A stretch of DNA of 25,033 bases from a virus. This document shows positions 16,973 to 17,972 of the stretch, one piece after another. The notes beneath the pieces are model-generated. The model saw only the letters and a program-made list of their open reading frames with translations, was not told the DNA's origin and made no database searches. Location of the stretch: positions 1 to 25,033 of IMG/VR virus record IMGVR_UViG_3300049215_000806, one strand, 5' to 3'. The first letter of the stretch is position 1; each line of letters opens with the position of its first letter. The position numbers were made by a program, and so were the translations under genes.

Positions 16973-17106
16973 TGGCTCTGAGACTAGGACTCGAACCTAG
17001 AAAGTGTTTTACCACCGGGTGGTTATCTTTGAAACCTTCCGAATCGAACGGAATATTTTTCCTTTGGTTTCCACAGCCACCTGCCTTGCCGTTAGGCTAT
17101 CTCAGA
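16973..17106 (-). tRNA. tRNA with 47-nt insert in anticodon loop, Asn(GTT)-like
   Basis: Acceptor TCTGAGA/TCTCAGA is perfect, G73, CCA. The D arm GCCT/AGGC and T arm CTAGG/CCTAG are normal. The anticodon stem GGTGG/CCACC closes a 54-nt loop. Removing 17026-17072 leaves CTGTTAA, the normal Asn loop. A 17-nt variable region with a GTG/CAC stem is Ser-like, so the amino acid is uncertain. Confidence 0.8.
17026..17072 (-). other. Minihelix insert (intron-like), copy 1
   Basis: Starts GGAAACC, ends AAAGA. GAAACC pairs with GGTTTC, and inside is a perfect T-arm copy, TTCCG-TTCGATT-CGGAA. Nearly identical to 17890-17935, one A more in a run. Confidence 0.8.
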
Positions 17107-17112
17107 ATATCT

Positions 17113-17250
17113 TTATTTTGATTCCAGCTTATCTAGTCTTAATAGTATTTCTTCCAAGACTTTAATAATTTCATTTGTAGATCGTTTAGTTTCAGGATCT
17201 TTTATACTGCTTGCCGCATTTTTAAGTATAATAATTTTATTAGCTGTCAT
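17113..17250 (-). CDS. Small helical protein, 45 residues
   Basis: MTANKIIILKNAASSIKDPE, then TNEIIKVLEEILLRLDKLES. The second half is an amphipathic helix. ATG overlaps the TGA of the HNH gene (ATGA), which favours real coupled translation. Function unknown. Confidence 0.6.
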   Translation of the reverse strand: MTANKIIILKNAASSIKDPETKRSTNEIIKVLEEILLRLDKLESK

Positions 17251-17804
17251 TTTAAACCTAACTTTCTCATTCTTTTATGAATTGCGGCATCAGAGCACCC
17301 AATTTCTTCTGCTAATTGGACTATTGATTTTGTTTTCAACTCTTCAGCAAGATTTAAATTATCCCAATCAACTTTATATTTTGCACGACCAGCACATGCT
17401 AAGGAACAATTTTTCAAGTCTGCTGGTTTTAATTTTTGACACACGGGGCAAGGAGTCATAATATCCTCCGCACCCACTTCTAGAGCCTTGTAGTCAGCAA
17501 ACTTTTCATCAAATTTTGGAGCATTATTAGGAACTGAAATTAAACCCTCATGTATTTCACAGTGGCAAATATGACAAACTAAAATACATTTTCTTAATTC
17601 ATTAACTATTGTAGCCCAACTTTTAACATTGGCTCTAATTACGCCAAGTCCAAAATCTTTTTCATTCGGATCCAAATGGTGAAGTGCTAAAGCTGATTGG
17701 CATTTATTGTAACCACAAACACAACAGCCTCCACCCATAGCCTTAATAATACGAGCTTTACAAGCCTTACGCCATCTTTTAACTTTTTCTGATTGCTTAC
17801 TCAT
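17247..17804 (-). CDS. HNH endonuclease with C-terminal helix-turn-helix
   Basis: 185 residues. CCVCGYNKC and ALALHHLDPNEKDF, then CHICHCEIH form the HNH core in residues 25-105. A second zinc site (CPVC…C…C) lies near 118-138. Residues 150-185 (IVQLAEEIGCSDAAIHKRMR) form a helix-turn-helix for target recognition. It sits between the two insert-bearing tRNAs. Confidence 0.9.
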   Translation of the reverse strand: MSKQSEKVKRWRKACKARIIKAMGGGCCVCGYNKCQSALALHHLDPNEKDFGLGVIRANVKSWATIVNELRKCILVCHICHCEIHEGLISVPNNAPKFDEKFADYKALEVGAEDIMTPCPVCQKLKPADLKNCSLACAGRAKYKVDWDNLNLAEELKTKSIVQLAEEIGCSDAAIHKRMRKLGLK

Positions 17805-17848
17805 ACCACCATATATATCATGTTAACTTATTATTTGGCGGTTCGGAA

Positions 17849-17972
17849 TGGCTCAAGCACCTGGAATCGAACCAGGGACAGACCGGTTATCTTTGAAACC
17901 TTCCGAATCGAACGGAATATTTTCCTTTGGTTTCCACAGCCGGTTATCAGTACCAACACTGAGACTGCTTGA
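17849..17972 (-). tRNA. tRNA-Asn(GTT)-like with 46-nt insert in anticodon loop
   Basis: Acceptor TCAAGCA/TGCTTGA is perfect, G73, CCA. D arm TCAG/CTGA; T arm CCTGG-TTCGATT-CCAGG. The anticodon stem ACCGG/CCGGT closes the same loop insert found in the 16973 tRNA. Removing 17890-17935 gives CTGTTAA. The 5-nt variable loop and G73 fit Asn. Confidence 0.85.
17890..17935 (-). other. Minihelix insert (intron-like), copy 2
   Basis: Same fold and insertion point (between loop positions 35 and 36) as 17026-17072, although the host tRNA stems differ. This indicates an inserted unit rather than a duplicated tRNA. Confidence 0.8.

Follow-up and report, generated by a model that had tools for sequence, protein, structure and literature searches.

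The stretch of DNA analysed in this study (the window; 25,033 nucleotides) represents 25 kb of a phage rich in tRNA genes. Over the first 11.9 kb that were compared, the window shows 100% identity to the 130-kb IMG/VR contig G001, and it extends past the end of this contig, with the interrupted tRNA genes being visible in the window only. Statements on the whole virus therefore refer to G001 and the window combined; all of these sequences are metagenomic contigs. The minus strand of the window carries two predicted tRNA-Asn(GTT) genes with interrupted anticodon loops. The first one (16973..17106; 5′ exon 17073–17106, 3′ exon 16973–17025) has a long variable arm, the second one (17849..17972; 5′ exon 17936–17972, 3′ exon 17849–17889) a short variable loop, and both encode the CCA end. 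In both genes the insert is located between nucleotides 35 and 36 and splits the anticodon. An ORF for an HNH-like endonuclease (17247..17804, minus strand) sits between the two genes; its homologues are annotated as HNH endonucleases, and no Pfam HNH match above the cut-off was obtained for the ORF itself.

The insert of the first gene (17026–17072, minus strand) comprises 47 nt. That of the second gene (17890–17935, minus strand, 46 nt) has one A fewer in its linker and is otherwise identical. According to the predicted fold, both are built, in this order, from G1, a 6-bp helix (GAAACC/GGTTTC), a linker of 12 or 11 nt, a perfect T arm (TTCCG-TTCGATT-CGGAA) and a terminal AAAGA. In the first insert these elements correspond, on the minus strand, to G1 at 17072, helix strands at 17066–17071 (5′) and 17031–17036 (3′), the linker at 17054–17065, a T stem at 17049–17053 / 17037–17041 with its T loop at 17042–17048, and AAAGA at 17026–17030. 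When the insert was subjected to 400,000 dinucleotide shuffles, a 5-bp T arm with an adjoining 6-bp helix never arose. Taken by itself, the insert has an unexceptional folding energy (z about −1.2); the case for this fold is based on the motif and on covariation. The stacking of GAAACC/GGTTTC on a T arm, as proposed in the original prediction, was recovered in both inserts of the window. The structural model suggests an intron in the form of a minimal, armless tRNA, in which an acceptor-like helix is placed on a true T arm and a short linker replaces the D and anticodon arms.

Natural empty sites define where the insert begins and ends. The intronless orthologue of the first gene reads GGTGG-CTGTTAA-CCACC in the 480-kb phage G010 and GGCGG-CTGTTAA-CCGCC in G020, with tRNA bodies otherwise nearly the same as in the window. 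Related huge phages thus contain the exact empty site CTGT^TAA, which makes the intron boundaries unique, and one and the same site exists in alleles with the insert (window, G007 and L156) and without it (G010 and G020). The insert coordinates given in the original prediction proved to be exact to the base. Because the orthologues put the boundary at CTGT^[GG...AAAGA]^TAA, both interrupted genes are assigned to tRNA-Asn(GTT) on sequence grounds. ARAGORN, with introns allowed, detected both genes and set the insert one base off; the His(GTG) identity it reported is an artefact of this shift, as the intronless orthologue shows Asn(GTT). The Rfam tRNA model scored above cut-off for the first gene. 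The idea that the two inserts reside in two different tRNAs therefore holds for the tRNA bodies, which do differ, but not for the isotype, as both are Asn(GTT) isoacceptors. U1, C2 and G73 of the window genes are as in E. coli tRNA-Asn. The CTGTTAA loop after removal and G73 are found in the window copies, in G007, in L156 and in the intronless orthologues, while the copy in G021 has T73 instead of G73.

Outside the window, insert-bearing tRNA-Asn genes were detected in two relatives, the 63-kb contig G007 and the 10.9-kb contig L156, and in the 435-kb phage L085/G021, giving a total of five copies in four phages with insert sizes of 45–50 nt. With replication and RNA-repair proteins at about 24–53% identity to those of the window virus, G021 is only distantly related to it; the sequences of the tRNA body and the insert in G021 differ from those of the window and the fold is the same. 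Over the five copies, 96.3% of the cells are paired and the covariation score amounts to 0.663, compared to 0.241 in shuffles (0 of 500 reached the observed value). Two-sided compensatory changes were found in 11 of 16 pairs, including four pairs of the acceptor-like helix and two of the T stem, and although these counts are inflated by the relatedness of the phages, sliding the partner strands still abolishes the signal (score at most 0.169). Whereas the helices and the linker vary among the copies, the stack length and the T-loop invariants TTCRA (T54 T55 C56 R57 A58), together with G53-C61, are constant in all five. AAAGA, located directly before the exon, and CTGT are likewise invariant in all five copies.

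The tRNA bodies surrounding the insert change in a similarly ordered way. Five of 84 body positions differ between G007 and the first tRNA of the window, of which four form two compensated pairs (4/80 and 28/40). L156 shows five body differences from the same tRNA, including the pair 27/41, and the remaining differences in both contigs fall into D- and T-loop positions. This indicates that the insert-bearing tRNA bodies are under compensatory constraint, which argues against pseudogenes. Given the natural empty sites, the compensatory changes over five copies and the constraint on the tRNA bodies, the insert is very probably an intron, and the same evidence strongly supports the earlier claim that its exact excision would restore CTGTTAA in both genes.

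A covariance model of the minihelix (R1), as suggested in the original prediction, was specific: it yielded 72.7–90.9 bits on the five tRNA-Asn copies and at most 17.2 bits elsewhere among 36 phage records. In nine further INPHARED huge-phage records, searched with stricter filters, the best score was 17.2 bits, compared to at least 72.7 bits for true copies. A scan without the Asn-anticodon requirement gave at least 137 sites that agree with the end motifs and the spacing of the T loop, most of which lie in random viral DNA, and among the matches listed only the known copies exceeded 12 of 16 pairs. Matches of exact and gapped sequence scans in viral contigs were chance hits or ordinary T arms, a scan of GTDB genomes with the junction pattern returned 25 matches, none of which is an insert within a tRNA anticodon loop, and a BLAST comparison of the inserts with INPHARED phages produced short fragments only. 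Random occurrence of the insert outside tRNAs, which would have spoken against the original prediction, was not seen in the scans. No description of such an intron was found in the literature searched, nor is one mentioned in two large huge/jumbo-phage papers. Judged from these sequences, the insert class has so far been encountered in no other place than the tRNA-Asn(GTT) genes that certain huge phages carry, although collections may omit close records.

The tRNA cluster contains further unusual genes. A third Asn-like tRNA (18787..18863, minus strand) starts with TC, has G73 and no insert, and exhibits an abnormal anticodon loop (CCCGTTAACGGG). Three phages (window 19121–19203, minus strand; L090 15955–16037; L095 1962–2044) share a tRNA in which the anticodon loop comprises 15 nt (...CCGTAAGGAAA...) and is conserved. 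This loop may contain another small insert, about 8 nt in length, which ARAGORN places at 33/34 in the relatives. Two weak tRNA-like genes of the window (18045–18115, with 34 bits, and about 18310–18415; minus strand) have mitochondrial-like D arms (GTAGTTTAATATAGAAC), and L037, which belongs to the same virus as the window, encodes a long-variable-arm tRNA with the amber suppressor anticodon CTA (16665–16756). The motif GAATGCNGNAANGGATTACAT is repeated in spacers between tRNA genes (18015–18035 and 16386–16406, minus strand), occurring twice in the window as compared to 0.02 expected occurrences.

The ruler length of a tRNA consists of 7 acceptor layers and 5 T-stem layers. RNase P measures this acceptor/T stack from the elbow in a ruler-like manner (PMC4919913). 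All five copies have 11 nt from C61 to the last helical base and 12 layers from the T loop to the 5′ boundary, if G1 is counted opposite the following A. The 3′ boundary of the intron falls precisely four nt beyond layer 72, which in a tRNA is the end of NCCA. The empty site defines both boundaries independently of this geometry. Among the observations, the geometry points most strongly to an end-processing route. However, layer 1-72 is a G.A mismatch in all copies, and an 11-layer reading would shift the predicted RNase P cut one nt later. In addition, intron positions 73–76 read AAGA and thus lack RCCA, on which minimal RNase P substrates can depend (PMC12710915); the RNase P RNA of the phage has a canonical GGU in L15. 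The mismatch and the lack of RCCA weaken the reading of the 5′ boundary as an RNase P cleavage site. The proposal that the 5′ end of the insert coincides with the RNase P cut position thus agrees with the 12 layers in all copies and with the RNase P RNA encoded in the window, but not with these two features, and the chances that RNase P would make the 5′ cut are judged to be about even.

Several components for RNA processing are encoded by these phages. The window contains a full-length class A RNase P RNA (2446..2775, minus strand; Rfam RF00010, 257 bits) and, two genes away, an ATP-dependent RNA ligase (1302..1916, minus strand; Pfam RNA_ligase PF09414, PHROG 548). RNase P RNA was present in 13 of the 22 huge-phage records searched, while the search gave no match in G021 (435 kb); no RNase P protein was found in any of the 11 phage records searched, so the host would have to supply the missing parts. 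No published report of a phage RNase P RNA was found in the literature searched, and two large huge/jumbo-phage papers do not mention RNase P. G001 encodes PNKP, further RNA_ligase-family genes, an Rnl1-type ligase and RlaP, as well as a polyA-polymerase-head protein, EF-Ts and TyrRS, and RNA ligases also occur in G021. Two Thg1-like proteins and RlaP of the G001 virus (L041 16926–17810, L045 8650–9435 and L043 15398–16552) suggest extensive tRNA end repair. EndA-type tRNA_int_endo (PF01974) was absent from 11 phage records and present in all four archaeal controls, RtcB (PF01139) was not found in the 11 phage records, and no 3′ nuclease for the intron end was identified in the phages. RNase P and RNase Z leave 3′-OH and 5′-P ends, which makes ATP-dependent ligases suited to sealing. 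With several ligases of the ATP type and no RtcB, the ligation step is plausible, and if splicing occurs, it is probably an ATP-dependent ligase that seals the exons. RNA-repair enzymes are, however, common in jumbo phages and are usually understood as repairing damage by host anticodon nucleases (PMC7824862); they hence permit splicing, but do not prove it.

In the proposed route, RNase P, consisting of the phage-encoded RNA or being the host enzyme, would grip the T loop, measure the 12-layer stack and cut between U35 and G1, leaving a 3′-OH. A tRNA 3′-end endonuclease, either of the RNase Z type or recognising AAAGA, would then cut four nt past the stack, before U36, yielding a 5′-phosphate, and a T4 Rnl1/Rnl2-type ligase that uses ATP would join the cloverleaf-held halves to CTGTTAA. 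Intron status, boundaries, fold and site are supported by sequence comparison and all three enzymes are putative. Excision by RNase P and a 3′ nuclease with subsequent ligation is considered the best explanation, with confidence evenly divided for and against it.

It appears possible, if rather unlikely, that the intron is instead released by another endonuclease, which would read the exon–intron junction and make both cuts prior to ligation. The junction motif could, for example, be a relaxed bulge-helix-bulge-like structure in which C32-U33 is paired with the AG of AAAGA. The minimum-energy fold pairs CU with AG in four of five precursors and places both boundaries in unpaired bulges, and this pairing would explain the invariant AAAGA and CTGT. 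Yet, its central helix has 2 bp instead of the 4 bp of a BHB, neither PF01974 nor PF01139 occurs in the 11 records, and the conserved T-loop bases and stack length are left unexplained; as the pairing is invariant, covariation cannot test it. Retention of the insert, giving a tRNA with an enlarged anticodon arm that serves as a decoy or as a form resistant to host anticodon nucleases, is unlikely. Anticodon-loop changes thought to evade anticodon nucleases have been reported for phage tRNAs (PMC10264068), and the conserved 15-nt loop of another tRNA of the cluster is also enlarged. However, despite the split anticodon the exons keep an exact Asn loop, G73 (window copies) and compensatory stem changes, orthologues without the insert exist, and the precise boundaries and the tRNA-like fold fit removal better.

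An interpretation of the genes as tRNA pseudogenes, interrupted by chance or by a mobile insertion, could be argued from the homing-type HNH gene between the two copies and from the several odd tRNAs of this phage. This is very improbable in view of the compensatory changes in insert and body, the same position in four phages and the intact CCA in four of the five insert-bearing genes. A very small self-splicing ribozyme would agree with the exact boundaries, the conserved terminal nucleotides and the phage setting, but the insert is far below group I/II size, matches none of the Rfam introns even with E raised to 10, and its conserved elements are all T-arm elements with no further conserved core, making such a ribozyme extremely unlikely.

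Compared with known systems, the insert appears to represent a type of tRNA intron that has not been described before, as far as can be told from its sequence. Archaeal and eukaryotic BHB introns, removed by EndA and RtcB or Trl1, are also short, reside in the anticodon loop and need endonuclease cuts and a ligase, but are inserted at 37/38 rather than 35/36. In place of the BHB (3-nt bulge, 4-bp helix, 3-nt bulge) the phage precursors are predicted to form a 2-bp CU/AG helix with unequal bulges; they have a conserved T-arm minihelix instead, and no EndA or RtcB was found. Bacterial and phage group I introns interrupt tRNA anticodon loops as well, sometimes with linked homing endonucleases, but have about 200 nt or more and a conserved core, unlike the 45–50 nt found here without an Rfam intron match. 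The original statement that group I and archaeal-type introns do not look like this accords with these comparisons. RNase P model hairpins and tRNA-like structures (PMC4919913, PMC12710915) share the T loop and, with G1 counted opposite A, the 12-layer stack ending at the proposed cut, but the phage insert lies inside another tRNA, has G.A at layer 1-72 and lacks RCCA. T4-type tRNA repair (Pnkp and Rnl1/Rnl2 acting after an anticodon nuclease) involves the same ligase family and anticodon-loop sealing, with its enzymes being present in the window virus; it mends damage, however, whereas the insert is genome-encoded. Theta (HDV-like) ribozymes, which are reported to be linked to phage tRNA-based recoding (PMC10879173), likewise constitute an unusual RNA element associated with phage tRNA genes, but belong to a known ribozyme class, while the present element lies inside the anticodon loop and matches no ribozyme family.

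The HNH-like ORF is a possible candidate for an agent that moves the intron or cuts empty sites. An orthologue in L156 (136–690; 75%) lies between tRNA-Asn genes, one of which is interrupted, and another one in G012 (65%) between two uninterrupted tRNA-Asn genes, one with the loop CCGTTAA; no orthologue is present beside tRNA-Asn in G007, G010 and G020. A strict partnership with the intron can be dismissed, as the gene lies between intronless genes in G012 and is missing next to the insert in G007. In L185, an HNH-like gene (893–1450) is located between tRNA-Asn genes, the second of which has the loop CCGTTAA (C33); this may be an altered target site.

It is thus tentatively suggested, with somewhat more doubt than confidence, that viruses infecting bacteria harbor a new tRNA intron class with its own splicing route, in which end-maturation enzymes release an armless-tRNA intron, an ATP-dependent phage RNA ligase joins the exons and the adjacent HNH endonuclease possibly spreads the element. 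Three ways of tRNA intron removal are generally recognised, namely self-splicing of group I/II introns, the archaeal BHB pathway and the eukaryotic SEN-type pathway. If true, an intron borrowing the tRNA end-processing machinery would represent another removal route, would assign a particular function to the phage RNase P RNA and the phage RNA ligase arrays, and would hint at a way in which protein-dependent tRNA splicing may have evolved from components already at hand.
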